A DNA stretch of 64,000 bases from Deferribacterales bacterium Deferri_01. GTDB taxonomy: Bacteria; Chrysiogenota; Deferribacteres; Deferribacterales; Geovibrionaceae. Positions within the stretch are counted from its first letter, which is position 1. Every line of letters starts with the position of its first letter. The stretch lies in NCBI GenBank assembly GCA_001603805.1, contig LUZY01000011.1, positions 62,001-126,000 of the forward strand. Reading direction: 5' to 3'. The notes beneath the pieces were generated by a model. That model was not told the DNA's origin. It saw only the letters and a list, made by a program, of their open reading frames with translations, and searched no databases. The position numbers and the translations under genes were made by a program. Positions 5,820-57,446 of the stretch are shown in pieces.

Positions 5820-6421
5820 TGATTTTATAGGTTTTTTTACTTATTTGGCATTCTGATTCTCAATAACTGAACAACAGTTTATGCACTGAAAGAACACCCA
5901 AATTTAAAACAAGTATTATTGATTAATCTAATCCGCTGTATTCTTAATAATTTATCACTAAAAACAACTATGCTGCAGTATATGTTATATACTTCAGTTT
6001 CTCTTCTGTTAGGAACTTGTTCTCATTAATATTATGTTTTATGTGATATAAAGCTCACATATTGTTTGCTGTTATTATTCTTGTTTCGTATAGTTGTTCA
6101 GCGGTTAGGTTTTATCTGTTTTCTATGTTGCGGGGAAGACTTGTGAACATTTTATGACCTATTCATAGACTATGTTTTAATTATTATATTTTGCTTCGTT
6201 TCCGTGTTTATATATTTGTCTATTGGTATTAGTAATTAACTACTTATTAGATATGAATTGAATATTTGACTTTTACTGTGTTCATTTTTTTTCAGAAATA
6301 TAACCAGATTAACAGATGATGAAATGAATGCTGTGCTGTTGAGCGTTTTTTTCATTATCTTGTGTTGCGTATTAGTGCAATCCCATGATAATCATCATAT
6401 AACACCTATGGAGGAAAGAAC
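5820..6421. other. AT-rich gene-free stretch
   Basis: About 600 bases that are strongly AT-rich with no open reading frame, RNA-gene signature or convincing hairpin. The only clear element is the ribosome site TGGAGGA just before the nitroreductase start. It may contain that gene's promoter, but I cannot single one out. Confidence 0.6.
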
Positions 6422-6940
6422 ATGATTGAACTGCTGAGAAAGAGAAGAAGCGTCAGAAAATATACAGATAAACCAGTGGAGAAAGAGAAAGTTGAACTTC
6501 TTTCCGAGGCTCTTTTAAGATCCCCCAGCTCCAGGGGCAGGAATCCGTGGGAATTTATTCTTGTGGATGATAAAAAAACCATTATCAAACTTGCAGAGGC
6601 AAAAAAGCACGGCTCGTCCTTCGCTGCGGAAGCAACGCTCGTTTATGTTATCACCGGAGACAGGGATGTGAGTGATATGTGCATTGAGGACTGTTCAATA
6701 GCTGCAGCTACTCTGCATTATGCGGCAGCGTCTCTCGACCTTGGAAGCTGCTGGATTCAGCTCAGGGGCAGGGAAAAGGATGATGCAACATTATCGGAGG
6801 ATTACGTCCGCAGGCTGCTTGGCATACCGGACAGTTATCTTGTTCTTGCTATGATTGCAATAGGCTACCCCGCTGATGCTCCGGAACCTCACCCTGAAAA
6901 TTATCTCCGTAAGAGTAAGATACGCCTCAACCGGTTTTGA
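6422..6940 (+). CDS. Nitroreductase-family FMN protein
   Basis: A compact 172-residue flavoprotein of the nitroreductase family. The N-terminal signature LLRKRRSVRKYTDKPV and the motif SPSSRGRNPWEF (FMN phosphate and ring contacts) are diagnostic. The C-terminal IAIGYPAD segment is the usual end of the FMN-binding fold. These enzymes reduce nitro groups, quinones or flavins with NAD(P)H; the physiological substrate cannot be told. A good ribosome site (GGAGGA) lies 7 bases before the ATG. It is a single-gene unit, closed by a hairpin shared with the convergent tautomerase gene. Confidence 0.88.
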   Translation: MIELLRKRRSVRKYTDKPVEKEKVELLSEALLRSPSSRGRNPWEFILVDDKKTIIKLAEAKKHGSSFAAEATLVYVITGDRDVSDMCIEDCSIAAATLHYAAASLDLGSCWIQLRGREKDDATLSEDYVRRLLGIPDSYLVLAMIAIGYPADAPEPHPENYLRKSKIRLNRF

Positions 6941-6948
6941 TAGTACGC

Positions 6949-6974
6949 CGGAGCATACATAAGAGTATGCTCCG
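6949..6974. terminator. Bidirectional terminator hairpin
   Basis: Perfect 10-bp stem CGGAGCATAC / GTATGCTCCG with a 6-base loop, placed between the convergent nitroreductase and tautomerase genes. The T tracts are weak on both sides. Confidence 0.65.
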
Positions 6975-6983
6975 TTAATCTGC

Positions 6984-7184
6984 TTACTGTTTTTTGCGAA
7001 GTTCGGTTATGGATTCTCCGCCCACTCCCCAGTTATCGGTTTCCACTTCGTCTATGATTACAAAAGTGGTTTTAGGATTCTTTCCCAGCACATCCACAAG
7101 CAGGTCTGTCACTCCCTGAATAAGTTTTTCTTTCTGTTCCTTGGTTGCTCCTTCCTTTGTGATTCTGATGTTTACGAACGGCAT
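6984..7184 (-). CDS. 4-oxalocrotonate tautomerase family protein
   Basis: A 66-residue protein beginning Met-Pro-Phe-Val-Asn; after Met removal the N-terminal proline is the general base of the tautomerase superfamily. The length and the ITKEGATKEQKEKLIQGVT helix are typical of 4-oxalocrotonate tautomerase-like proteins, which usually form hexamers. The start has a strong AAGGAGG 6 bases upstream and overlaps the end of the MFS transporter gene by 13 bases, so the two are co-expressed. No meta-cleavage pathway genes are present here, so the substrate is unknown; it may act on an enol compound taken up or exported by the coupled transporter. Confidence 0.9.
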   Translation of the reverse strand: MPFVNIRITKEGATKEQKEKLIQGVTDLLVDVLGKNPKTTFVIIDEVETDNWGVGGESITELRKKQ

Positions 7185-8329
7185 TTTTTCCTCCTTGTTA
7201 TATATGCTGCTCCCGCAAGGGCTGTGAGAGCTGCCCCGGCGGCTACATTTACAGATGAAAAGATGAGCGGTTCGGCGAAGCTGCCGGATTTATATGCCAT
7301 CAGTCCGCCGATCCATGGGCTGATTATCTGTCCGACTCCGTAAAAAACCGTGAGGTACGGAGCAGTATTTGCTTTCGGGAGCATTTGTCTTCCGCATGCA
7401 AATGCCAGTGCAACAGCACCGAGGAATGTTCCGCCGAAAATGACAGCGAAAATATAGGCTGCCCAGACTGAATTACTGAATGCAGGCAGAAGCATACCGG
7501 CCGCCTGAAGTATATAAAGAATCACAAGCACTCTGAATAGACCGAACCTGTGACCTGCCCATGACCAGATAAAGTTTGAGAAAACTGCGGCAAGCCCTGC
7601 CAGAGCCCACCCCGTGAATCCGGCAGAAACGGAGCCGGATGAAGACTTAATTATATCCACAAGGAAGGTTCCTGCAATTATATATCCCGAACCTTCAAAA
7701 AGATAAGCAGCAGCAAGCAGAAGAACCGGCAGGCTCCATATGCCTTTATTGTCTATCTCTGCTTTACCTCTTGTGGCGGCTGATGTGCCTCCGGCAAGAA
7801 GGTATGAGACTGTGGCGGTTATAACGCTGACAGCGCCGATGAAATACCACGGTGTCTGCCAGCTTCCGTATGACGCAGCGAAGGGCACTGACCATGAGGA
7901 AAATGCTATGCCTGCGCCGACGCCGCTGAAGAGAAGACCTCCAAGGTTCTGTTTGTGGTTTGCATAAAGAGAGGTGTAAACTTTTTCTGCTGCACATATA
8001 AAAACCGCAGCACTGTAAAAGCCGGAGAGCAGACGGATTATGCTCCACCATATCATTGTTTCTGAAACAGGCATGAGAGCCGTAGTCAGAACGCTTAAAA
8101 CAAGCGATATTTCAAAAGTATGCTTATTTGGTGTTTTTAATGTGTAGAACAGCGCACCAAGCAGATAGCCGGCGTAATTTGCCGATGCAATAAAACCTGC
8201 CTGTGCTGTGTTCATAACACCTGCTTCGAGCATGAATGTGATTGCAGGTGTATAGGCGAATCTGCCGATACCCATTGCGGTGAACATTGCAGCAGCACCG
8301 CCTAAAAGAACAGCTCCGTAATGCTTCAT
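7172..8329 (-). CDS. MFS transporter, YbfB/YjiJ family
   Basis: A 385-residue, roughly twelve-helix major facilitator of the YbfB/YjiJ type. The N-terminal motif MGIGRFAYTPAITFML is a hallmark of this group. I chose the ATG with GGGGAGG upstream, which opens directly on the first helix, rather than a start 15 codons earlier. It is the first gene of a two-gene unit with the tautomerase. Substrates of this family are poorly defined; the coupling suggests a small organic acid or enol compound, which is inference. Confidence 0.88.
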   Translation of the reverse strand: MKHYGAVLLGGAAAMFTAMGIGRFAYTPAITFMLEAGVMNTAQAGFIASANYAGYLLGALFYTLKTPNKHTFEISLVLSVLTTALMPVSETMIWWSIIRLLSGFYSAAVFICAAEKVYTSLYANHKQNLGGLLFSGVGAGIAFSSWSVPFAASYGSWQTPWYFIGAVSVITATVSYLLAGGTSAATRGKAEIDNKGIWSLPVLLLAAAYLFEGSGYIIAGTFLVDIIKSSSGSVSAGFTGWALAGLAAVFSNFIWSWAGHRFGLFRVLVILYILQAAGMLLPAFSNSVWAAYIFAVIFGGTFLGAVALAFACGRQMLPKANTAPYLTVFYGVGQIISPWIGGLMAYKSGSFAEPLIFSSVNVAAGAALTALAGAAYITRRKKCRS

Positions 8330-8390
8330 TCCCCGTTCCTCCCCTTTGTGTTGAGATATTATCATATACTGCAATCAAAACAACCTTTAA

Positions 8391-8424
8391 GAGTCTGAAA
8401 ATCGTTTTCACCGGTTTCAGACTC
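8391..8424. promoter_or_regulatory. Perfect 10-bp inverted repeat upstream of the MFS gene
   Basis: GAGTCTGAAA and TTTCAGACTC separated by 14 bases, 62-95 bases upstream of the transporter start. It is either an operator or a leader hairpin of the minus-strand transcript. The rest of the 423-base gap 8330-8752 between the divergent MFS and LysR genes holds a second looser repeat, TTATCA-N20-TGATAA (8662-8693), in the position expected for LysR autoregulation. Confidence 0.45.
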
Positions 8425-8752
8425 TATGGAAGTATTTTTATTCTGTGCAGAAAAAAGAAAACATGTATGCCCTTTTTTGAAAAAACGGAGCTATACTTGT
8501 TCGGCTGCTAACAAATTATGCTGATATTCGGAAATATGAGATAAATACCGGATAGTCTTTCCCGTGTAAACGCTTGCCGTTGTGTTTGTATCTTTTTTGG
8601 TATGTTTTTTATTCGTTAATACAGCTTGCAAGGCTTTGCATAAAGTTCATTTTTAGCGATATTATCATATGTTTACATCAATACAAGTGATAACAATTAT
8701 TACGCCATAGATATATCATATGTCACAAAATATGCTTATTTCATGGTGGTGT

Positions 8753-9601
8753 ATGGACTTAAACGAGTTAAGGATTTTTCTGGAGGTTTACAGGACAGGA
8801 ACAATTTCATCTGCGGCGGAGAAGCTGAATACTGTTCAGTCAAACGTTACTGCACGTCTCAAAAAACTTGAGGACGAGCTTAATGTTTGTCTGTTTTACC
8901 GCAAGAGCAGAGGGGTGGAAATAACATCTGACGGCAAAAGGCTTTTGCCGTTCGCTAAAAAAATAATGTCTGCAGCAGCGGATATAAGCAGTGAATTCAA
9001 ACTGAAAACAGCCGCCAAGGGTGAGATCAGAATAGGGCTGACAGATACAACATTTTCCGAGTGTCTTCCTGCTGCTATGTCTGCATACAAAAAAAAATAT
9101 CCTGAAGTGGAATTGACAATCAAGACAGATTCTTCCGCAGCGCTTGTGGAGGATATAATGGCATACAGGCTGGATGGAGCATTTACAGGCGGTGTGGGTT
9201 TTAATGAGAATATTGAGTCGGTCAGGCTGGGTGAGGTTAATGCTGCTTTAGGCGGCATTAAAAAGGAGATAAGAGATCCTTCCGCTCTTATTGTTTTCCG
9301 TAAAGGCTGCTCATACAGAGATGTTCTGGAGAAGTGGGCGGCTTCTGCTGATTTGCAGAACGTCAAGGTAATAGAATTAAGCACTCTTGAGGGGATACTT
9401 GGCTGCGTTCGTGCCGGACTGGGAGTGACTTGCATGCCTGAGAGGTTACTGAAAAAATATGATGTTCCGTATGAAGAACTTGAGGATAACTACAGACTGG
9501 TGGAAACAAATTATATATACAGGAGAGACATAAAACAGCCGGCGGCGGCTGATGCTTTTGCTGCGCTGATCAGGAAAAACTTTTTGACTCAGACTGAGTG
9601 A
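8753..9601 (+). CDS. LysR-family transcription regulator
   Basis: A 282-residue LysR-type regulator. The N-terminal winged helix runs MDLNELRIFLEVYRTGTISS with the recognition region AEKLNTVQSNVTARLKKLE, followed by a periplasmic-binding-like co-inducer domain (IRIGLTDTTFSECLPAAM onward). The chosen ATG gives the canonical LysR N-terminus; an in-frame ATG 33 bases earlier adds residues foreign to the family. The end of the gene is 40 bases before a UbiD-family decarboxylase on the same strand, which may be its target or partner. The divergent MFS transporter is the other candidate target. The co-inducer is unknown. Confidence 0.92.
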   Translation: MDLNELRIFLEVYRTGTISSAAEKLNTVQSNVTARLKKLEDELNVCLFYRKSRGVEITSDGKRLLPFAKKIMSAAADISSEFKLKTAAKGEIRIGLTDTTFSECLPAAMSAYKKKYPEVELTIKTDSSAALVEDIMAYRLDGAFTGGVGFNENIESVRLGEVNAALGGIKKEIRDPSALIVFRKGCSYRDVLEKWAASADLQNVKVIELSTLEGILGCVRAGLGVTCMPERLLKKYDVPYEELEDNYRLVETNYIYRRDIKQPAAADAFAALIRKNFLTQTE

Positions 9602-9641
9602 ATGTTGTTAAATAGGGCATAAAAAATTATACGGTGATGGC

Positions 9642-11480
9642 ATGGGTTACAGAAATCTTAATGAATGCGCTTCAGACCTTGAAAAGAAAGGAATGCTTGT
9701 CAGGATAAACACAGAGCTTGATCCTCATCTTGAAATAGGGTGTGTTCAGAGAAGAGTATATGAAAACGGCGGTCCGGCACTTTTGTTCACTAATGTAAAA
9801 GGAAGCCGTTTTCCCATGTTGGGAAATCTTTTTGGTACCATGGAGCGGACGAGATATATTTTCCGGGACAGCCTCAGGATAATCGAGGCGATGGTTAAAA
9901 TGAAAATAAATCCGAAGGAAGCCCTGCTTGATCTGCCCTCATTATTTAAGGCTTTTGCAGGTGCATACAGACTGCTCCCCGCCGGGAAAAGTAACCCCGC
10001 CGTAATGACAAACAGATGCTCTTTAAGGGAGCTGCCCCGGCTTGTATCATGGCCGATGGACGGCGGAGCTTTTGTTACTCTTCCCCTTGTTTACACAGAA
10101 AACCCCTCTTCAAAAGGTTTTCGCTCGTCTAATCTCGGCATGTACAGAGTACAGATTTCCGGCAATGACTATTTGGAAAACGAAGCAGGGCTTCACTACC
10201 AGATTCACAGAGGAATAGGAGTTCACCACAGAGAGGCTCTGCAAAAGGATGAGCCTCTTCCTGTGAATATCTTCATAGGCGGTGCGCCTGCGCTTACTGT
10301 GGCGGCGGTAATGCCCCTGCCGGAGGGTATGCCGGAGCTTGCTTTTGCAGGTGTATTAGGCGGAAGACGGATAAGCTACGGCAGGACGCCGAACGGACTT
10401 CCTGTCCCTGCGGAGGCTGATTTCTGCATTTCAGGGTACATTTACGGAAATGAAACCAAGCCGGAGGGTCCATTCGGTGATCACATAGGCTATTACAGTT
10501 TGAAGCATGATTTCCCTGTGATGAAGGTTGACGCCGTTTACCACAGAGACGGAGCAATATACCCCTTCACCACTGTGGGCAGACCCCCGCAGGAGGATAC
10601 GAGTTTCGGCGAATTTATTCACGAACTCACAGGAGGGCTGATTCCGGAGGTTTTGCCGGGGATAAAGGCAGTTCATGCAGTGGATGCTGCTGGTGTTCAT
10701 CCGCTTCTGCTTGCAGTGGGCAGTGAAAGATACGCCCCCTACGAAGATAATCCACGCCCGAAGGAACTGCTCACACAGGCAAATGCAGTGCTTGGTCAGG
10801 GGCAGCTTTCTCTGGCTAAATATCTTTTTATATCAAATTATTATGACAACAAAGAACTTGATGTGCATGATGCTGAGGCTTTTTTGGTTCATATGCTTGA
10901 AAGGGTTGACTGGCGGAGAGACCTGCATTTTCAGACATCGACAACAATAGACACTCTGGATTATTCCGGCAGCGGGCTTAATGAGGGCTCCAAAGTTATT
11001 ATTGCCGCCTGCGGAGCAAAGGTCCGTGAACTGTCTGCTGAGATAAAAGGCGGGCTCAGTCTTCCGGAGGGGTTCAGCGAACCCAGAGTTGCGATGCCCG
11101 GAATCCTTGTTGTTCAAGGTAAAAAAGCTGATTCTCCGAGGGGTGCGGAGGATGAGGCAATTCACTCGTTTGTTCGCTCGTTTAATGCAGAGCATCCTAT
11201 AAACCGTTTTCCGCTTATTATAATTGCTGATGACAGCGAGTTTACTGCGAGAAATTTGTCAAATTTTCTGTGGGTTACATTTACCAGATCTAATCCTGCA
11301 AGTGATATTTACGGTATAGGTGCCGAGACCGTCAGCAAGCATTTCGGGTGCAGTGGTTCATTGGTGATAGATGCACGCATTAAACCCCACCACGCTCCGC
11401 CGCTCATAATGGACAGTGAAGTGGAAAAGAGGGTTGATGTGCTTTTCTCCAGAAACGGAGTATTAGCTGGGCTGGGTTGA
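9642..11480 (+). CDS. UbiD-family prenylated-FMN decarboxylase
   Basis: A 612-residue UbiD-family (de)carboxylase, which uses prenylated FMN to remove carboxyl groups from aromatic or unsaturated acids. Recognisable stretches are LGMYRVQISG followed by GLHYQIHRGIG (cofactor binding) and PEGPFGDHIGYY, the acidic active-site segment of the family. At over 600 residues it is longer than UbiD (about 490) and close to the versions thought to act in futalosine-route menaquinone synthesis. No UbiX-like flavin prenyltransferase is nearby. It might equally degrade an aromatic acid under control of the upstream LysR gene. Only 10 bases separate its end from the convergent response regulator gene. Confidence 0.9.
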   Translation: MGYRNLNECASDLEKKGMLVRINTELDPHLEIGCVQRRVYENGGPALLFTNVKGSRFPMLGNLFGTMERTRYIFRDSLRIIEAMVKMKINPKEALLDLPSLFKAFAGAYRLLPAGKSNPAVMTNRCSLRELPRLVSWPMDGGAFVTLPLVYTENPSSKGFRSSNLGMYRVQISGNDYLENEAGLHYQIHRGIGVHHREALQKDEPLPVNIFIGGAPALTVAAVMPLPEGMPELAFAGVLGGRRISYGRTPNGLPVPAEADFCISGYIYGNETKPEGPFGDHIGYYSLKHDFPVMKVDAVYHRDGAIYPFTTVGRPPQEDTSFGEFIHELTGGLIPEVLPGIKAVHAVDAAGVHPLLLAVGSERYAPYEDNPRPKELLTQANAVLGQGQLSLAKYLFISNYYDNKELDVHDAEAFLVHMLERVDWRRDLHFQTSTTIDTLDYSGSGLNEGSKVIIAACGAKVRELSAEIKGGLSLPEGFSEPRVAMPGILVVQGKKADSPRGAEDEAIHSFVRSFNAEHPINRFPLIIIADDSEFTARNLSNFLWVTFTRSNPASDIYGIGAETVSKHFGCSGSLVIDARIKPHHAPPLIMDSEVEKRVDVLFSRNGVLAGLG

Positions 11481-11489
11481 TAGGCAGTG

Positions 11490-12530
11490 TTATATGTGAT
11501 TATGGTTGTTGTATATTTCAACTATCCGGTCTATGCCTTCCATAAATGAGTCAACCGCTTTGGGGTCAAAGTGTGTGCCTTTTGCATCTAATATATAGGC
11601 TACCGCATCCTCAAATGCCCATGCTTTTTTATAAGGGCGCTTTGACGTGAGGGCATCAAAAACGTCAGCCAAAGCAACTATACGGGCATCCAGGGGTATG
11701 TCTTCCCCTTTGAGCCCTTCGGGGTAGCCTGTGCCGTCATATTTCTCATGGTGGTAACGTGCAATTGCCGCCCCTCCTCTGATGTACGGGGAATCAGCGT
11801 TCTTCAGTATGTCGCATCCGAAGACGGTGTGCTTTTTCATTATTACAAATTCTTCGTCTGTAAGTTTTCCGGGTTTGTTCAGTATAGTATCGCTTACTGC
11901 TATTTTGCCTATATCATGCAGGGGTGCGGTGTGAAGTACCTGCTCACAGAAATCCGGTTCGCATCCCATGCCTTCTGCTATGATCCGTGCATAATTGCCG
12001 ACACGGAGTATATGTTCGCCTGTTTCCTCATCTCTGTATTCCGCCACACGCCCGAGAAGGGCTAATGCCTCAAACTCTCTGGCACGGATAACTTCTGTGG
12101 CTTTTTCAACTTCAGACTGAAGATGAAGCGCCCGTTCACTGAGCATTTTCCTGTATTTTCTTATGGTGAGAATATTATTCAGGCGTGCTTTGAATTCTGT
12201 GGTGTCAATGGGTTTAGTGAGAAATTCCGTAGCGCCGGATTCAAAGGCACCTATTTTCACTGTATTGTCGTCATTAACCGCTGTTATCATGATAATGGGA
12301 ACATCCGGCTGAATGCTTTTTATGGTTTTGGTAAGTTCAATTCCGTTCATGCCGGGCATCATGTAATCAACAAGAGCCACGTCTATTTCATTATTTCGGG
12401 TATATTCCAGAGCTTCCAAGGGGCTTGAGAAGCTTTTAACCTTGTGCCCTATTGCCCCTGCAAGGTGTTCTATGAGCATCAGGTTAACTTTATTGTCGTC
12501 AACAGCAATAATATTGAAGATAAAATCCAT
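11490..12530 (-). CDS. Response regulator with HD-GYP output (c-di-GMP phosphodiesterase, RpfG-like)
   Basis: A 346-residue protein with a receiver domain (residues 1-125; acidic pocket DD near residue 11 and phosphoacceptor Asp in VALVDYMMPG) joined by a helical linker to an HD-GYP domain. The metal and signature motifs HTAPLHDIGKIAVSD and HHEKYDGTGYPEG are intact, so it should hydrolyse cyclic-di-GMP. It is transcribed divergently from the FIST-domain hybrid kinase, with 124 bases between starts; the kinase is the obvious candidate to phosphorylate it. Together they would tie sensing of a small molecule to c-di-GMP turnover. Confidence 0.93.
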   Translation of the reverse strand: MDFIFNIIAVDDNKVNLMLIEHLAGAIGHKVKSFSSPLEALEYTRNNEIDVALVDYMMPGMNGIELTKTIKSIQPDVPIIMITAVNDDNTVKIGAFESGATEFLTKPIDTTEFKARLNNILTIRKYRKMLSERALHLQSEVEKATEVIRAREFEALALLGRVAEYRDEETGEHILRVGNYARIIAEGMGCEPDFCEQVLHTAPLHDIGKIAVSDTILNKPGKLTDEEFVIMKKHTVFGCDILKNADSPYIRGGAAIARYHHEKYDGTGYPEGLKGEDIPLDARIVALADVFDALTSKRPYKKAWAFEDAVAYILDAKGTHFDPKAVDSFMEGIDRIVEIYNNHNHI

Positions 12531-12654
12531 CCAAGATCCCTAGTATTAATGACTATTACACAGTATAATCTATGTATTGTTACATTAGAACTAGTCTTTT
12601 ACAATGATTTTATGCTTGTGCGCCACTAAAAAGCGGACAGCCTCAGGGGAAAGT

Positions 12655-15600
12655 ATGAGGATTTTCAATTTCAGCTGTACCGATGCCGTTGAACTTAATA
12701 AAAAGCTTAAAGATATTTCTTTTTATGAAAATGGAAACCGCCTTGTCCAGATTTTTGGCGGAAGCGGGAACACGAAACAGATCATGAGCATCGCCGCCGC
12801 CGCCGGGGAAATAGAAAACTCCTGCGTAATTGGCTGCACCAGCGCAGGTGAAATTCTCGAAGGTGAAATACTCGAAGGTTCTGTTGTTGTTTCCATAGCC
12901 GATTTTGAATTTTCCCATGTAAAATCTTTTTTCTTTTCAGGCAATGACATGGTACACGCAGCAGATGAGATAATAAAAAATATTATAACTGAAGATACAA
13001 AAGGACTGATTATTTTCTCCGACGGGCTCAAAAGCGATGGACAGGCTCTGATTACACGGCTGGGTGAGGCTGCTCCTCATGTTTTGATTGCCGGTGGTAA
13101 AGCAGCGGATGATTATTCATACTCTAAAACTTTTGTTTTTACTGATAAAGACCTTGCCGACTGCGGTGTTGTCTGTGCAGCACTCAGCGGTGAGGAGCTG
13201 ATACTCCACACTGATTATCTTTTCAACTGGGAAGCCGTGGGGGAAATGATGACTGTTACCCGCTCCGAAGGGGGAAGGGTTTACACAATTAACAATACCC
13301 CCGCTGTTGAAATCTACAGCAAGTATCTGGGGCATGAAATTGTAGAAAGCCTGCCGGATGCGGGGATGGAGTTTCCTCTGATCTCCTTACGCAGAGGCAT
13401 AGATGTCGCCAGAAGCCCTTTGGCAAAGTTTGATGACGGTTCAGTGCTTTTCGCAGGCGATATTGAAGAAGGGTGCAAGGTTCGCTTCGGCTTCGGTAAT
13501 CTTGAGTTTGCAGACTCAGGCTCGCATATTAATTATGACGCCATGAACGGCGTTCCTGTGGAATGTATTTTTGTATACACTTGTTCAGGTAGACGTTTTT
13601 TTATCCGTTACGGTATGGAAACCGAAATACGCCTTTTGGCATCTATGGGAAGCTCTGCGGGTTTTTTTACATACGGCGAGTATTTTCACAAAAACCGATG
13701 CAATGAACTGCTTAACATAACCACAACATTTATGACCTTAAGCGAATCCAAAGATGCTGTCAGAATACACGAAATTAGAAGCAGACGAAAACCGAACCGA
13801 TCACTGAAAGCCCTTACCAATCTGGTACGTACCACCTCTGCCGAGCTGAATTTTGAAAAGGAACTCACCTCTGTGATACTGGATAATCAGGAAAGCATAG
13901 TTGTTCTCCGATCTGATGCTGAAGGCGATGTTAAAATCAACCGTACTTTCTTCGACCTGTTCGGATTTGAAAACCTTGAAGACTTCAAAAAACAGCATAA
14001 GTGTATAAGTGAACTGTTTATTTCGCAGGAAGGCTATCTGGATCAAGGCTGTTTTGATAATGTTGATATTATAATAAATGAGAAATGCAAGCTGCGCGAT
14101 CCCAAAGGGCTCGTGCGTGTTTATAAGGTGCGTGCATCAAAGCTGGATTTCGGTGAAACACCCTACATGCTGATCACGTTGAATGACGTTACCGATCTTG
14201 AGAACGCTGTGAATACTGCGGTATTCGCCGAAAAGGCAAAGTCTGACTTTCTGACTAACATCAGCCATGAGATCAAGACACCTCTCGGCGGTATGCTTGG
14301 TTTTCTGGATATATTGGGACAAATGGAGACCGCCCCCGAAAAAAAAGAGCTTATTGCAGTGGTAAGGGAAAACGGTGCAAGCCTTCTTTCTGTTATTAAC
14401 GACATCCTCGATTATTCAAAGATAGATAACGGGCGCATGGAAATACGCTATATGCCGTTTAAGCTTGAGTATGAGCTTAAGGCGGTGATTTCCACATTTA
14501 AAACCAAAGCCAGAGAGAAAGATATCGAACTTACTCTCCATCGGGATGAGAATATTCCTGTTTATATGGTGTCTGATCCTCTGCGCCTTAAGCAGATCTT
14601 GTGCAATCTCATAAGCAATGCGCTTAAATTTACTCCCAAGGGTGGCAGGGCGGAACTGAGGGCTGATTATCTTCCTGAAGAAAAAAAAGTACGTTTCAGC
14701 ATAACTGATAATGGTATAGGGATTCCTAAGGACAGCCAGAAGAAGATATTCAGATTTTATGTTGATATTAATTCGGATATTTCCACAAAACCACAGGGCG
14801 GCACAGGCTTGGGGCTTGCTATCTCATCCAGCCTTGTAGATATGATGGGCGGCAGGCTTGAGGTAGAAAGCGATGAAGGAAAAGGGAGCAGGTTCTTTTT
14901 CTCTCTTGATGTGAATGATTTTCTTCTTCCGGAAGGATACGGCGGAACAAGGGGAGCAGAGCAGTCGGAAAGACTTACCGGAAGCTTTAAGGGCAGGATT
15001 CTGATAGCCGATGATAATGAAACCACTGCCAAACTTGTGCAGCTTATTCTGGACTCTTACGGTTTGGAGCATGTCTGGGCAAAGGATGGAAGGGAGGCTG
15101 TAAAAGAATTCAGTGAGGATAGGTTCGATTTGATTCTCATTGATGAAAACATGCCTGTGATGAGCGGATGTGAGGCTGTGGCAGAGATAAGAAAGCTTGA
15201 GGCACGCCGCAATGCGGAGAGAACTCCTATAGCTGCCTTTACTGCTAATATAGGGCTTTTTGTTGATGAAAATTTCCGTAAATACGGTATGGATGAATTT
15301 TTGCCAAAGCCACTTGACTTTGCGGAACTGCACGGTTTGCTTCACAAATATCTTAGTGAGTCGGCTGACGGACTTGAGACCATGCGTCAGAAGCGTGCCT
15401 ATCCCACAGCGGGGATGGGAGCAGGCACAGAGCTTATTGCAGACGTTATCGACGGTTTGAGGCTCAAAAAAGAAGACGTTATTATACTTCTGAGCAATTT
15501 TATAGAACAGTTCAAAGAGCAGTATGAAAACCTTGAGCATGCGTTTACTGAAAAGGATTTCACCAAGATAGCAGCAACTTCTCACAGCATATACGGAGCA

Positions 15601-51494: not shown

Positions 51495-51655
51495 ATTAAG
51501 AGAGAACAGATATATCAGGCATATCCGCATATGTCAACAATAATCAATTAGTGTCTGAACCGTTTGAAAACTATCCTCCTGCGAATGAAAATAGCAGTAT
51601 GTATTAAGGCTTTATCAGGTCTTTGCCTTCTCTGATCCACGCAGGAAAAAGAGGC

Positions 51656-53005
51656 TCACATTCTGAGCTTGCGTGACAGGGTTGACTGTGAAAGCCCGAT
51701 AAGTGATGCAGCCTTTCTTTGGTTATTTCCTGAACGCCTCATTGCTTCATAAATAAGCTGATTGACAATCTCATTGACAGTGGGGAGGATGTTTTCTTCC
51801 GTGAAGGTGTTTGCAGGCATATTCAAACCGTTGTCCAAATGATGAAAGTCTTCTACTGTCAGTGTGCTGCCGCCCTTAAGCACTGCATTGTAAACAGCGG
51901 ATCTAAGCTCACGCACATTCCCAGGGAAGTCGCATTTCATAAGGAAATATATCAGCGAATCATCATAATGAGGTATTTCTATTGAGGTCTCAGAGGATAT
52001 TTCTTTTAAAAAATGCTCAAAAAGGAGCGGAATATCGTTTCTGCGCTCCCTGAGAGGCGGTATTGTCACACTGTGAGTGCTGATTCTGTAGAAAAGATCC
52101 TTGCGAAACAGCCCTGCTTCCTGCTTTTTTCTGAGATCATCGTTTGTAGCCAGTATGAAGCGGGCTTCCGAATGCCTGACATTATCTGAACCAAGCTGCT
52201 GGTAAACTCTTTCCTGAAGGAGATAGAGCAGCTTAACCTGAAGAGACATGGGCAGCTCTCCTATTTCATCCAGAAAGATCACTCCGTTTTCCGCCTGCTG
52301 TATCAAGCCTGTTCTGTTATGCTCCGCTCCTGTATAGGCTCCTTTTATATGTCCGAAAAGAGTATCGGAAAAGATTTGTTCATCGAGCCCTGCAATATTC
52401 ACTGAAACAAATGGTCTGCCTTTCCTCGCCACACTTGCGAATGCTTTTGCCAGAACACCCTTGCCGACGCCGCTTTCTCCGCATATAAGGACGGGCTCTT
52501 TGCTTGTTACTATTGCTGAGAGATATTTAAAAATGGTGAACATTTTCGGGCTGCATGTGACAAATCTGTCAAATTCGCCTGCGTGGTCGGAAAAGATGCT
52601 TTTTTTCAGAGCCTTATTCTCGGCAATGAGATCACACATGGCACCGACTCTTTTCACGCTGGCGATATGCTCTTCCACCGTGGCTGTTTTTACAAGGTAA
52701 TCGGCAGCACCTTCCCTCATACAGGTCACTGCGGTGAAGATATCGTTCATCCCTGTCATTATAACAACGGTCACTTCGGGAAACTCACTGCGTATCAGTT
52801 TAAGAACATCCTCTCCGTGTTCATTTTCAAGAATAAGATCAAGGAATACTATATTTATGTTCCGGTCAGACAGGATTTCCATTGCGGACGAACCGTTTCG
52901 GGCAGTGAAGATATTGTCTTCTGATGTTATTTTATAATTGGAAAGCACTTTCTTAAAAGATTCCATCCATTTTATTTCATCATCAATTAAAAGCACAGAC
53001 AGCAT
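51656..53005 (-). CDS. NtrC-family sigma-54-dependent response regulator
   Basis: A 449-residue activator. Receiver domain (residues 1-120; phosphoacceptor Asp in IVFLDLILENE), AAA+ domain with Walker A GESGVGKG and the sigma-54 contact loop GAYTGA, and a C-terminal Fis-type helix-turn-helix (NNQRKAASLIGLSQSTLSRK). It is directly adjacent to its kinase: the kinase stop TAA is followed by this ATG. It is the last gene of the flavocytochrome operon, which starts with a sigma-54 promoter, so it most likely activates its own operon. Confidence 0.95.
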   Translation of the reverse strand: MLSVLLIDDEIKWMESFKKVLSNYKITSEDNIFTARNGSSAMEILSDRNINIVFLDLILENEHGEDVLKLIRSEFPEVTVVIMTGMNDIFTAVTCMREGAADYLVKTATVEEHIASVKRVGAMCDLIAENKALKKSIFSDHAGEFDRFVTCSPKMFTIFKYLSAIVTSKEPVLICGESGVGKGVLAKAFASVARKGRPFVSVNIAGLDEQIFSDTLFGHIKGAYTGAEHNRTGLIQQAENGVIFLDEIGELPMSLQVKLLYLLQERVYQQLGSDNVRHSEARFILATNDDLRKKQEAGLFRKDLFYRISTHSVTIPPLRERRNDIPLLFEHFLKEISSETSIEIPHYDDSLIYFLMKCDFPGNVRELRSAVYNAVLKGGSTLTVEDFHHLDNGLNMPANTFTEENILPTVNEIVNQLIYEAMRRSGNNQRKAASLIGLSQSTLSRKLRM

Positions 53006-54949
53006 TTAAACCTCGTTTTTACTCACTGAAGGCAGGTACAGCGATACTACTGTTCCCTTACCCTGAATGCTTGAAAGCTCATGATAGCCTTTATGTTCTT
53101 TGACAATTCTGGATATAATGGCAAGTCCGAGCCCTGTTCCGCCCTGATTGCGCCGTGTTGTGAAGAACGGGTTCCATATATCATTAATGATCTCATTATT
53201 TATACCCCGCCCCTCGTCTGTGACGCTTAGTTTTACATATTTGTTATCTTCAGTGTTTTCAAGTGAGCAGACAATTTTCTGTTTTTTTTCAGTCAGAGCG
53301 TAGCAGGCATTCTGGATAAGGTTGATTACCACCTGCTCCATCTGAAAAGGATTGGCATATACTTTATTAAGATTGTCTTTTGCATCGAATACAAAGCAGT
53401 TGGTGTATTTTTTGGTAAAGAAGCCAATAAACTTCAGGGCGTCATTAACCGTTCTCTTTATATCAATTACTTCAAAGGTATTCGGCTTACTGACACTATA
53501 TGCTTTCAGCTCACGGATTACTGTTGTTATGCGCCTGAGACTTTCGCTTATGTTATCTTCAGCCTCTTCAAGTGTTTTTCTGGCAGATGTCCACCCGTCA
53601 ACATATTTGTCAAGATCACTGAAACCGTCAGGGTGGTCACTAACATAGCTGCCGATTCCGTTATGAATACGTTTGATTAAATCCATATTCAGACCTATCA
53701 GCGCAGTCGGGTTGTTTATTTCATGAGCCATTGTTGCCGCCATTTCCCCAATTGCAGCCAGACGGACAGCCATAAGAGCTTCATCCCTGAGTTTAACGTT
53801 TTCTGTTATTTCAGACATGATAACAAGCAGCCTGTCCTGCTGGTTGTCCAGATTAACAGCCACTATCCGCCATGAGCGTGCATCATTGGAAAGCCTGGTA
53901 AGGTCGAAGCATTTATTTTCATGTATTGCAGATTCTATTTCCTTCTGAATATTTTCCATTGGGTATGTTCTTTTCTGAGTATTATTAACGTTAGTCCATG
54001 AAACCTTCCCCTCTTTGCTGATCAGGTATATACATTCAGGCATGGCATCAAGAACCATCTGAAAAAGCGAGGACAGGCTTCTCAGGCTTGCTGTTTTTCT
54101 CTGAACCTGTTTTTTGAGCATCTTATTCCAGATCAGTATTATAAATGCAGCGACAATAACAGCAGCAAGAGCTATGAGAGTGTAGTAATACCATGATGGT
54201 GTGGAAATATCTCTTATGTGCCACTTTTTTATTATTTCAAAATATACTCCGTTGCGCTTGATTTCCTCCATAGCCTTGAGCATTTTTTCATAAAGTTCAT
54301 TGTTGTTTTTATTAACACAGAAGCCGTATATGGCGGGTATATTCGGTATGAAACTGCTGCGTATATTTTTTACGCCTATCTGGTAAGCGGAGTTTAGCGC
54401 CAGCTCCATTGTTGAGAGAAGTGCATCACCTTCGCCGTCTGATAAAGCCTGCATGGCTTCAGGGGAGGTGTCATAGGTGACAGTACGGATATTATATTCA
54501 TCTCCGTGTTCAACAAGATATGAGTGGCTGTATGTGTTTTTTACAACCAGAACTGTTTTACCCCTCAGTTCGTCCATATTTGTCAGGTAAGGCATATCTG
54601 TTCTGGTGAAAATAGACCTGTAAAGCACTATTGATGTGGGTATGTGCGCTGCAAATTTGTTTGCGGCACGCACAGGAGAGATGGACATCATATCTATTTC
54701 CCCGCTTTCAAGCTTATGCAGGTTATCCTTATAATTGCCGGGAACAATTTCATATGTGCATCCGGCGGCGTCTGTCAGAGCTTTCAGCAGATCAACATTC
54801 ATTCCCTTAGGCTGTTTATGGTCGTTAAGCCATTCGTAAGGTTTATATATTGACCACATGCCGTATATGATATGACAATCATCCGACGGGTATGAGTTAA
54901 AAACAGAGACTGACAAAAAAAATGAAATTAATAAAACGAGTTTTCTCAT
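53006..54949 (-). CDS. Histidine kinase with periplasmic solute-binding (SBP family 3) sensor
   Basis: A 647-residue membrane kinase. Signal peptide, then a periplasmic domain of bacterial solute-binding family 3 (residues about 25-250; KGMNVDLLKALTDAAG and ESGEIDMMSISPVRA are typical), one transmembrane helix (WYYYTLIALAAVIVAAFIILIW), a PAS-like region, HisKA with MAHEINNPTALIG and a HATPase (VINLIQNACYAL; TDEGRGINNE; GGTGLGLAIISRIV). It should sense an organic substrate outside the cell, plausibly the acceptor reduced by the co-encoded flavocytochrome, and signal to the NtrC-type regulator. Confidence 0.94.
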   Translation of the reverse strand: MRKLVLLISFFLSVSVFNSYPSDDCHIIYGMWSIYKPYEWLNDHKQPKGMNVDLLKALTDAAGCTYEIVPGNYKDNLHKLESGEIDMMSISPVRAANKFAAHIPTSIVLYRSIFTRTDMPYLTNMDELRGKTVLVVKNTYSHSYLVEHGDEYNIRTVTYDTSPEAMQALSDGEGDALLSTMELALNSAYQIGVKNIRSSFIPNIPAIYGFCVNKNNNELYEKMLKAMEEIKRNGVYFEIIKKWHIRDISTPSWYYYTLIALAAVIVAAFIILIWNKMLKKQVQRKTASLRSLSSLFQMVLDAMPECIYLISKEGKVSWTNVNNTQKRTYPMENIQKEIESAIHENKCFDLTRLSNDARSWRIVAVNLDNQQDRLLVIMSEITENVKLRDEALMAVRLAAIGEMAATMAHEINNPTALIGLNMDLIKRIHNGIGSYVSDHPDGFSDLDKYVDGWTSARKTLEEAEDNISESLRRITTVIRELKAYSVSKPNTFEVIDIKRTVNDALKFIGFFTKKYTNCFVFDAKDNLNKVYANPFQMEQVVINLIQNACYALTEKKQKIVCSLENTEDNKYVKLSVTDEGRGINNEIINDIWNPFFTTRRNQGGTGLGLAIISRIVKEHKGYHELSSIQGKGTVVSLYLPSVSKNEV

Positions 54950-54986
54950 AGTACAATTATAGCATAAGTAGTTTATAATGGAAAGG

Positions 54987-55008
54987 ATCCCTCCCGTTAG
55001 GGAGGGAT
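54987..55008. terminator. Hairpin between cytochrome and kinase genes
   Basis: Perfect 9-bp stem ATCCCTCCC / GGGAGGGAT with loop GTTA, without a T run. It may hold back transcription or protect the 3' end of the flavoprotein-cytochrome message, giving less kinase and regulator than enzyme. Confidence 0.6.
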
Positions 55009-55013
55009 AAACT

Positions 55014-55376
55014 CTATGGAACTTTTATTGCAAAATTATGGCACTGGTCACAGAGCAAAACTGATTTTTCGTGCGATTTATGGCAATTGTTGCAGGGGAG
55101 CGGGCCATAGTGGCTTGCATGGGGGTTTATTTCCTCCTCCGGGTTTGCAGTCAGGGCTGCAAGGTCTTCGTAACTGCCGTGACAGTCGAGGCATTTTTCT
55201 GTTTCAGGAGCGCTTGAGGGAGCATCTGTCGAGTGACAGTCCGCACATGAGCTGCCATGTTCGGAGAGATGCCGGTCCGCCAGTCTGTTGCTGCCTTCTG
55301 ACGGTGATTTCTGCACCGATGCAAAAACTGAAAACGTCAGTATTAGTATAAATACCAATAAGGTTGAGATTTTCAT
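55014..55376 (-). CDS. Periplasmic tetraheme cytochrome c (flavocytochrome c heme subunit)
   Basis: A 120-residue secreted cytochrome with a signal peptide (MKISTLLVFILILTFSVFAS) and four CxxCH heme sites: CADCH, CLDCH, CNNCH and CDQCH. Spacing and size match the heme domain of Shewanella fumarate reductase Fcc3. It follows the flavoprotein gene by 80 bases and should pass electrons to it. The pair is thus a split flavocytochrome c. AAAGGTGG lies before the ATG. Confidence 0.93.
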   Translation of the reverse strand: MKISTLLVFILILTFSVFASVQKSPSEGSNRLADRHLSEHGSSCADCHSTDAPSSAPETEKCLDCHGSYEDLAALTANPEEEINPHASHYGPLPCNNCHKSHEKSVLLCDQCHNFAIKVP

Positions 55377-55405
55377 TATCCACCTTTAATAAATTATAAT
55401 TTGAG

Positions 55406-55430
55406 TTCCCCCCTGTATCACAGGGAGGAA
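55406..55430. promoter_or_regulatory. Hairpin in the flavoprotein-cytochrome spacer
   Basis: TTCC-C-CCCTGT / ACAGGG-A-GGAA with loop ATC, just after the flavoprotein stop region. Without a T run; likely an mRNA processing or stability element. Confidence 0.45.
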
Positions 55431-55456
55431 CCTGACACTTGCTGGTTTTGGTATTA

Positions 55457-57172
55457 TTACAGAGCTTTTTCTCCAGCGGCATTTCTGCCTGCTTCACGTC
55501 CCATTACCACACATTCTGTAATATTACCGCCGCCCTGATAGACGAACTTAAGGGCAGATGATATTTCCCCTGCGGTATAGAGGCGTGGTATAACTTTACC
55601 TGTCCACTCAAGAACCTGACGTTTTGCATTGCACTTTATTCCGCCTTTGGTGTTGGGACCGCCGGCATAAAGCGGCATTGCATAGTAGGGTGCTTTTTCA
55701 ACGGGCTTCAGAGTCGCTTTACGACGTCCGAACTCTTTATCTTCTCCGGCAGTGCATGCTTCATTAAACTTATTCACTGCCATTTTAAGGTTTTCAGGTA
55801 CCATCTGTTCTTTATTTTCCGGATGATTTTTAATCATTTCGGCAAGCTCTTCAAGAGTATCTGCCTTCATGATCCATCCGCGTTTGATTGCATCCTGATT
55901 ATCTTTTGTCCATGGCAGGAAGTCATAAGCTGATGTTGATATAGCCATATTTGTCAGAGGACCGGCGTCTATTATCTGCTGGTCCATGATCAGCCATGAC
56001 GGGCTGTTGGGGTAGCGGAGAGTGTCTATATCAAAGTGAACTGCTTCTTTATATGAAAAATAACGGCTGGGGTCGTCTGTTATTTTAGTTTCAGCAAGGT
56101 ACCTGTTGCCGAAAGCATTAACCATTATAGAGTGAGGGCGCCCCACAGCCGGGGTGATGATTCCTATTTTCATACCGTTGTGGCGTACAGGAGGAGCAGC
56201 GATCAGGCGGGAAGCAGCTTTACCGACTTTGGCAAGACCTGCACCAACTTTCATTGCCATGGATATGCCGTCGCCTGTGTTTGCTGTTGTGCCGTAAAAT
56301 GCCCAGCCTTCAGTTCCCTGACCCTCAAGGAAAGCTCTGCGCATTTCAAAGTTATATTCATAACCGCCGCAGGTAAGAATTACAGCTTTTTTTGCTTTAA
56401 CAGCTATAGTTTTGCCTTTGTATTCTGCTAGAACGCCTATTATTTCACCTTTTTCATTAGGAACAAGGTCAACTGCCGGTGCTTCATAAAGAACTTTGAT
56501 TTTGTCTTTGCGGTCAACAACACCTTTTTTAAGCAGGGCGAAGAAGGCTTCTCCGTTTTCTTTCTGAAGATAGGGGAGGTCTTTTGTGGCTGTCATTGAG
56601 CGTGTGTATCCGGTGAATGAGCTTGAGTGTGTTGAGTAGCCTGATTCTTTCGCACCGGGAAAATTAGGGAAAGAGGCTCCCTTGCCCAGAAATGATCCCA
56701 TTGTCGGGCTGAATGCCGGATCGATTGACTGAAGCCATGGGATGATGCCCGGAATATAGTCAGCCCAGAGATCAGCCAGACCTTCTGCAACTACCGGGTC
56801 TTCTTCGCTTTCCAGTTTCCACGGCAGGTTCTGACCGGAAAACAGAGCAAGCGCATACTGTTTGAGTGCCTCACGGTTATATTCTTTTTTAGTTGAGTGG
56901 AATATGCCGCCCGACATGCGGGTATTTGAGTAGTGTGTTTTCTCGACCTGTTTTTCGAGAATAATTGATGAAGTTCCTGCATTTGCCGCTTCAATTGCAG
57001 CGCATGCGCCTGCGCCTCCGAATCCCACCACTACTATTTCAGTTTCGTAATCCCATTTTCTGGGAACCTGAACGGGAGCAGCGTTTACTGCACCCGGCAG
57101 CATTGCTCCGATAGTTGCCGCACCTGCAACTACTGTGGCTTTTTTAATGAAGTTTCTTCTTGAGATAGACAT
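55457..57172 (-). CDS. Tat-exported FAD-dependent reductase of the flavocytochrome c / fumarate-urocanate-methacrylate reductase family
   Basis: A 571-residue periplasmic flavoprotein. Tat signal SRRNFIKKATVVAGAA, then an FAD Rossmann motif VVVGFGGAGACAAIEAANAG, and a C-terminal FAD segment RLYTAGEISSALKF ... GGGNITECVVMGREAGRNAA. The family reduces a carbon-carbon double bond at the end of a respiratory chain. In fumarate reductase Fcc3 the sequence before Gly-Gly-Asn is Asn-Arg-Leu, and that Arg binds substrate; here it reads Tyr-Gln-Gly, so the usual carboxylate-binding Arg seems replaced. Fumarate is therefore doubtful; another unsaturated substrate is more likely. AGGAGG precedes the ATG. 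First gene of a four-gene operon. Confidence 0.93.
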   Translation of the reverse strand: MSISRRNFIKKATVVAGAATIGAMLPGAVNAAPVQVPRKWDYETEIVVVGFGGAGACAAIEAANAGTSSIILEKQVEKTHYSNTRMSGGIFHSTKKEYNREALKQYALALFSGQNLPWKLESEEDPVVAEGLADLWADYIPGIIPWLQSIDPAFSPTMGSFLGKGASFPNFPGAKESGYSTHSSSFTGYTRSMTATKDLPYLQKENGEAFFALLKKGVVDRKDKIKVLYEAPAVDLVPNEKGEIIGVLAEYKGKTIAVKAKKAVILTCGGYEYNFEMRRAFLEGQGTEGWAFYGTTANTGDGISMAMKVGAGLAKVGKAASRLIAAPPVRHNGMKIGIITPAVGRPHSIMVNAFGNRYLAETKITDDPSRYFSYKEAVHFDIDTLRYPNSPSWLIMDQQIIDAGPLTNMAISTSAYDFLPWTKDNQDAIKRGWIMKADTLEELAEMIKNHPENKEQMVPENLKMAVNKFNEACTAGEDKEFGRRKATLKPVEKAPYYAMPLYAGGPNTKGGIKCNAKRQVLEWTGKVIPRLYTAGEISSALKFVYQGGGNITECVVMGREAGRNAAGEKAL

Positions 57173-57206
57173 ACATGTCCTCCTGTAAATAAACTAAAGA
57201 CTAAAA

Positions 57207-57223
57207 AGCAAAGGGTATGCCTA
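57207..57223 (-). promoter_or_regulatory. Sigma-54 promoter of the flavocytochrome operon
   Basis: On the minus strand AGGCAT-ACCCT-TTGCT: GG at 57221-57220 and GC at 57209-57208 are exactly 12 bases apart, as required for -24/-12 promoters. Transcription would start near 57196, 24 bases before the ATG. The only mismatch in the core is A for T at the first position, plus T for C after GGCA. Confidence 0.7.
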
Positions 57224-57274
57224 AGTGTAAAATGTTTATTATCAGGTGTTTATGTGATAAGCGGATGCGGTGTT

Positions 57275-57299
57275 ATTCATAATGCAATTCATAATGAAT
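57275..57299. promoter_or_regulatory. Tandem palindromes, candidate enhancer sites
   Basis: ATTCAT-A-ATGAAT (57287-57299) is a perfect palindrome and ATTCAT-A-ATGCAA (57275-57287) a near copy 12 bases away. They lie about 80-105 bases upstream of the predicted sigma-54 start, the normal place for NtrC-type activator binding. Confidence 0.5.
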
Positions 57300-57446
57300 A
57301 TGATTGATGCAAAATGAATTATATTGAGAGCTGGTTTTATTAACATATTAAAACAGAAAGTTCGGCTATTTGGTTTAAAAAGAGATAGGGTTCAAATGGG
57401 GCGGAAAGAGGGAAACGGACAGCCATTTCTGACTGCCCGTGCTGTT

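Follow-up and report, generated by a model that had tools for sequence, protein, structure and literature searches.

A sigma-54-controlled flavoprotein and cytochrome module in a Deferribacterales bacterium, probably an inducible periplasmic reductase for a substrate not of the fumarate type

A module of four genes from Deferribacterales bacterium Deferri_01 probably encodes an inducible periplasmic respiratory reductase that is equipped with its own sensor, activator, and sigma-54 control. The module occupies positions 51656-57299, on the minus strand, of a stretch of 64,000 nucleotides (nt) of contig LUZY01000011.1, which is referred to as the window; the genome to which it belongs (G000) measures 2.85 Mb. 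According to the reading preferred here, to which a probability of about 0.62 is assigned, the substrate is not of the fumarate type, and the kinase and regulator are expressed mainly from a promoter of their own. The enzyme is most likely a quinol-fed periplasmic reductase whose acceptor is enone-like or otherwise atypical. Two genomes served for comparison throughout: G002, of the same genus, whose flavoprotein is 92% identical to that of the window, and G016, of the same order and another family, where the identity is 56%.

In the mechanism proposed, the periplasmic solute-binding domain of the kinase would bind a small organic ligand, probably either the acceptor itself or a related compound, so that the kinase would in effect sense the substrate of its own enzyme. 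The kinase would phosphorylate the NtrC-type regulator, which would bind paired ATTCATnnTGAAT palindromes ~97 and ~117 bp upstream and drive sigma-54 RNA polymerase at 57223-57207, leading to the production of flavoprotein and tetraheme cytochrome. Electrons derived from quinol would pass via the cytochrome to the flavoprotein, and this would hydrogenate the acceptor in the periplasm. A NapC/NirT-family cytochrome gene is found elsewhere in G000, and its product is a possible donor on the quinol side. The kinase and regulator would be made mainly from a sigma-70-type promoter at 54984-54956 and be present before induction, with read-through perhaps adding some. In this scheme, the genes, the promoter, the palindromes, the conservation of these elements, and the missing active-site residues are read directly from sequence, whereas the identity of the ligand, the contact between regulator and DNA, the activity of the internal promoter, the flow of electrons, and the class of substrate are inferred.

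Gene layout and sigma-54 control

The four genes are co-directional and follow each other in series; they, and all other features of the window described below, lie on the minus strand. The first (55457..57172) encodes a flavoprotein of 571 amino acids (aa) that is exported by the twin-arginine (Tat) route, its twin-arginine start reading SRRNFIKK, and that, in Pfam searches of the proteins of the module, carries an FAD_binding_2 domain; its active site is noncanonical. It is followed by a Sec-exported tetraheme cytochrome c (55014..55376; 120 aa; Cytochrom_c3_2) with four CXXCH motifs, which resembles the heme domain of Fcc3 (match to the heme domain of PDB 1d4c, E=7.8e-14). The third gene (53006..54949) encodes a membrane histidine kinase of 647 aa with a signal peptide, a periplasmic SBP_bac_3 domain, an H-box (MAHEINNP), and HATPase_c, the ATPase motifs also being present. 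The fourth (51656..53005) encodes an NtrC-type response regulator of 449 aa composed of a receiver, an AAA+ domain, and a Fis-type helix-turn-helix (Response_reg, Sigma54_activat, and HTH_8), whose AAA+ loop reads GAYTGA in the window and GAFTGA in G016. The intergenic gaps are short, namely 80 nt between flavoprotein and cytochrome, 64 nt between cytochrome and kinase, and 0 nt between kinase and regulator. An earlier, sequence-only reading of this DNA had placed four genes at these coordinates and on this strand, and had described a reductase split into flavoprotein and cytochrome with a dedicated external sensor and activator. Open reading frames and Pfam domains agree with the first claim; flavoprotein and cytochrome are indeed separate genes, and the kinase with its periplasmic domain and the NtrC-type regulator are linked to them.

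Upstream of the flavoprotein lies the -24/-12 promoter TAGGCATACCCTTTGCT (57223-57207), an exact GG-N10-GC match in which the spacing from GG to GC is exactly 12. When the transcription start is placed 12 nt past the C of the -12 GC, as was done in all three genomes, it is predicted at 57196. The site and its 12-base spacing thus stand as the sequence-only reading had them, whereas the 24 nt that it gave as the distance from promoter to gene separate the predicted start from the flavoprotein ATG at 57172, the -12 element being 36 nt ahead of that codon. In 275 nt of upstream sequence, the top sigma-54 score has a P of about 0.013 under a first-order null. The site is well beyond chance because it is conserved in both G002 and G016; such conservation in related genomes had been named in the earlier reading as a check on the promoter. 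Strict -24/-12 matches across G000 number 14, against 2 for a reversed control pattern, and by this count of sequence matches the sigma-54 consensus is enriched genome-wide. There is a single copy of rpoN in G000.

Further upstream, 13-bp palindromes of the form ATTCATnnTGAAT are found, whose positions are given as the distance from their centre to the predicted start of the respective genome. Putative activator site 1, ATTCATTTTGCAT (57307..57319), is centred at -117 and has counterparts at -116 in both G002 (GTTCATTTTGCAT) and G016 (ATTCATTTTGAAT). Putative activator site 2, the perfect palindrome ATTCATTATGAAT (57287..57299), is centred at -97, with counterparts at -96 in G002 and -97 in G016. 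A half-matching site 3, TTGCATTATGAAT (57275..57287; centre -85), is identical in G002 (centre -84) and has no counterpart in the promoter region of G016. Exact matches to ATTCATNWTGAAT number two in the 2.85 Mb of G000, the second within the coding sequence of an ABC-transporter ATPase, and three in the whole of G016, two of these at the flavoprotein promoter; a chance occurrence was rejected on these genome-wide counts. Together with the linked regulator, the palindromes are likely to be its binding site. As promoter and palindromes recur at equal distances in G002 and G016, sigma-54 control by the linked regulator, proposed in the earlier reading, is well supported at the level of sequence. 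A related module elsewhere in G000 (L034, described below) carries another repeat, GTTATA..TATAAC, as expected because the regulator there is a different one.

The active site of the flavoprotein and its substrate

An alignment with Fcc3-type proteins and UrdA places R322, T365, N507, and Y545 of the window flavoprotein at Fcc3 positions H365, R402, H504, and R544. The proton-donor Arg (R402/R411) is missing from the window flavoprotein (T365) and from every close relative aligned. The carboxylate ligands His504/His520 and Arg544/Arg560 are also missing, N507 and Y545 being found instead; N507, T508, and Y545 are invariant in six aligned relatives. In UrdA, Arg411 donates the proton and its replacement by Ala abolishes activity, while His520 and Arg560 bind the carboxylate; the proton-donor Arg is needed in UrdA and Fcc3 alike (PMC10882135). 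The label of fumarate, urocanate, or methacrylate reductase was rejected, as all four Fcc3/UrdA residues checked are absent. Consequently, the suggestion in the sequence-only reading that acids of this kind are the substrates is not supported, the more so since UrdA is dead without the proton-donor Arg (PMC10882135).

By family profile, the best solved relative is the 3-oxosteroid 1-dehydrogenase 7p18, just ahead of UrdA. The predicted model is nearest to 3-ketosteroid dehydrogenases (KSTDs), with template modelling (TM) scores of 0.63/0.69, followed by cyclohexanone dehydrogenase (~0.60), with Fcc3 mostly at ~0.47, a ranking that is indicative only because the quality of the model is modest. 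Y545 aligns with the catalytic Tyr of KSTD, and this Tyr and a Gly at +4 match Tyr487/Gly491 of KstD1 in the window, G002, G016, and a further genome, G022; relatives in Mailhella and Natrinema keep the KSTD-type Tyr and lack the Gly. In KstD1, these two residues promote keto-enol tautomerisation (PMC5348764). Given the KSTD-type Tyr, the KSTD-nearest fold, and the absent Fcc3/UrdA residues, the best guess from sequence and model is an enone-like carbonyl compound, either cyclic or open-chain.

Several observations speak against this assignment. The AlphaFold model, whose mean predicted local distance difference test (pLDDT) score is 65, is weak in the presumed active-site loops, and equivalents of KSTD Tyr119/Tyr318 were not located in it or in the alignment, both of which are weak in those regions. 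Moreover, the sensors of the window and G002, and not that of G016, have a solute-binding Arg of carboxylate type. An Arg of this kind in a solute-binding protein (SBP) domain usually holds a carboxylate. The sensor seemingly lacks the acidic residue to which amino groups bind in amino-acid-binding proteins. Nevertheless, the class of ligand is not readable from the sensor because G016 does not share the Arg.

The same Arg lends weight to a second explanation, in which regulation proceeds as proposed and the substrate is a carboxylate held by other residues. In this divergent family, an acid could be held by residues of another kind; in addition, the Mailhella relative (31% identical) lies near a TRAP transporter, and the Natrinema plasmid relative (51%) near SLC13 and tripartite tricarboxylate transporters. 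None of these transporter genes is directly adjacent, however, Tyr takes the place of R544 as it does in KSTD, and the proton-donor Arg that is lacking here is required in UrdA and Fcc3 (PMC10882135). A carboxylate substrate is therefore a possibility of some substance, albeit a doubtful one. It is improbable that the flavoprotein is instead a periplasmic dehydrogenase that oxidises a cyclic ketone or a comparable compound and passes the electrons to the cytochrome. Its nearest folds, KSTD and cyclohexanone dehydrogenase, fit such a role, but the partner tetraheme cytochrome is of the type found as the heme domain of Fcc3, known examples of which deliver electrons to the flavin, and there are many such pairs in G000, one of them fused and canonical.

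Expression of the kinase and regulator

In the sequence-only reading, the regulator switches on the operon including itself and thereby creates positive feedback. This is not supported. In G016, kinase and regulator come first, followed by the palindromes and promoter and then by flavoprotein, cytochrome, and a 188-aa protein that belongs to no known family. The G016 regulator is outside the sigma-54 transcript because its gene and that of the kinase are upstream of the promoter; a regulator gene within that transcript is thus not a conserved trait. In the window, a conserved predicted promoter behind a hairpin also speaks against feedback. The hairpin, ATCCCTCCCTAACGGGAGGGAT (54987..55008), is terminator-like, lies in the gap between cytochrome and kinase, lacks a strong T-run, and keeps its stem in G002. 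It is followed by a predicted sigma-70-type promoter (54956..54984; TTTCCA-17-TATAAT with TG before the -10) that has 10/12 consensus bases and whose -10 ends 6 nt ahead of the kinase ATG. No Shine-Dalgarno sequence precedes this ATG, while one is present before the other three genes of the module. This arrangement of -10 and ATG suggests that the kinase has its own leaderless transcript. Between the window and G002, the cytochrome-kinase gap is 82% identical, compared with 59% for the flavoprotein-cytochrome gap and 32% for the sequence after the regulator, and an identical run is shared around the internal -10. In the window, some read-through from the sigma-54 promoter into kinase and regulator is possible.

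Other observations weaken the case for this internal promoter. Matches to a consensus like it are not clearly commoner than expected (16 versus a shuffle mean of 12.7, standard deviation 3.9), and the conservation that backs it is between two genomes of one genus. In 6/109 genes of G000, all without a Shine-Dalgarno sequence, the end of a -10-like hexamer lies 5-8 nt ahead of the ATG, and no clear positional peak is seen; the evidence that leaderless starts are frequent in G000 is therefore suggestive. A single sigma-54 transcript for all four genes, with a self-amplifying regulator and an enzyme that reduces a fumarate-like unsaturated acid, would agree with the co-directional genes, their short gaps, and a spacer hairpin that may permit read-through, but it is unlikely in view of the upstream kinase and regulator of G016, the conserved internal promoter before a kinase that lacks a Shine-Dalgarno sequence, and the absence of all four acid-site residues checked.

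Two further structures lie in the module. The flavoprotein-cytochrome gap (55377..55456) holds a 13-bp hairpin whose pairing persists in G002 (L069 10108-10179) though the letters of the stem differ between the two genomes, and which may have a role in mRNA stabilisation or processing. A terminator-like hairpin with a T-run is found at the regulator stop codon (51654..51668).

Known systems, distribution, and related modules

The module is a variant of known split flavoprotein-cytochrome reductases, such as Mrd/Mcc and Cgr1/Cgr2. Mrd/Mcc is the methacrylate redox system of Geobacter sulfurreducens AM-1, and the excerpted description of it presents a co-encoded, periplasmic pair of a Tat flavoprotein and a separate Sec multiheme cytochrome c, adjacent genes of this type being found in the window too, with a terminator-like hairpin between its two genes as well; close relatives are reported in Deferribacteres (PMC4427408). 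By that same excerpted description, with which the window was compared, its cytochrome is larger (7 CXXCH), and no linked kinase/NtrC pair is mentioned (PMC4427408). Cgr1/Cgr2, the cardiac glycoside reductase of Eggerthella lenta, likewise pairs a Tat flavoprotein with a separate cytochrome, lacks the residues of fumarate and urocanate reductases as the window flavoprotein does, is induced by its substrate, and acts on an unsaturated lactone (PMC5953540). In contrast, as compared by description, it belongs to another host, has a putative LuxR-type regulator, and its Cgr2 needs [4Fe-4S] cluster(s) (PMC5953540).

Fcc3 and UrdA, the Shewanella fumarate and urocanate reductases, share the FAD_binding_2 fold, and the tetraheme cytochrome typical of them is present in the window as a separate protein with a putative donor role. 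They differ in that the window system is split over two proteins and has R, T, N, and Y in place of H365, R402, H504, and R544. The KSTDs (4c3x, 7p18) and cyclohexanone dehydrogenase (8am3) are the best profile and fold matches of the window flavoprotein, but their identity to it is only ~20%. These dehydrogenases are not known as Tat-exported, cytochrome-coupled respiratory enzymes. The active site of the window flavoprotein fits none of the characterised respiratory reductases compared. As to regulation, the external-sensing kinase, AAA+ activator, -24/-12 promoter, and upstream palindromes are reminiscent of DctB/DctD-type control of the NtrC family, whereas the putative 13-bp operator was matched to no known regulator. 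With a sensor, a likely operator, and a promoter defined to the base, a reporter of the 57196 promoter would show which compound induces the system in nature and, by extension, what the enzyme probably reduces.

Relatives of the flavoprotein are rare, being found at E<=1e-50 in only 4/385 genomes searched, mainly of other phyla. A single-sequence scan of the genome collection gave only four distant matches, including the 31% identical one in Mailhella. The haloarchaeal relative on a plasmid of Natrinema zhouii (L075 11983-13590) is unexported and has an in-frame stop; it adjoins an MFS transporter and a gene of the cysteine-dioxygenase family. In G022 (L071 8968-12756), a tetraheme cytochrome gene lies between two flavoproteins that are arranged in tandem and belong to the same clade, and no regulator gene is found on this stretch, which reaches the contig end. 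Since the distribution is patchy, horizontal spread of the flavoprotein is suggested. Tentatively, the flavoprotein might be the founding member of a rare class of periplasmic reductases that are fed by a cytochrome, have a KSTD-like active site, and have spread horizontally; with it, the bacterium would respire enone-type compounds detected by the sensor, although this broader proposal is itself doubtful.

Within G000, at least nine further flavoproteins of the same superfamily are encoded, most of them adjoining a multiheme cytochrome. At L034 (G000 C9:143000-162000, 9604-14676), a second SBP-kinase/NtrC pair is followed by a fused tetraheme flavocytochrome c, which alone among the superfamily members of G000 retains what fumarate reductases have at H365, R402, and R544; a -24/-12 site (TTGGCATATGCATTGCA) lies 62 nt ahead of it. 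Because L034 also combines these elements, a sensor and activator with a sigma-54 promoter and a flavoprotein is, as judged from the gene content, a repeated design in this genome. As G000 carries several such modules, solving one would help to assign many orphan flavoproteins, which are readily given the wrong label of fumarate reductase. L036 (G000 C11:148000-163000, 6007-11077) encodes a Tat flavoprotein, a tetraheme cytochrome, and a Phenol_MetA_deg outer-membrane protein, divergent from a sigma-54 activator (XylR_N/V4R) of the kind that senses aromatics. A -24/-12 site precedes the flavoprotein by 135 nt, and the locus possibly serves the respiration of an aromatic compound. At L030 (G000 C11:184000-200000, 7047-12542), a flavoprotein and a cytochrome are encoded divergently from a dCache-PAS-sigma-54 activator protein of 1042 aa, in which membrane sensor and activator are apparently united.

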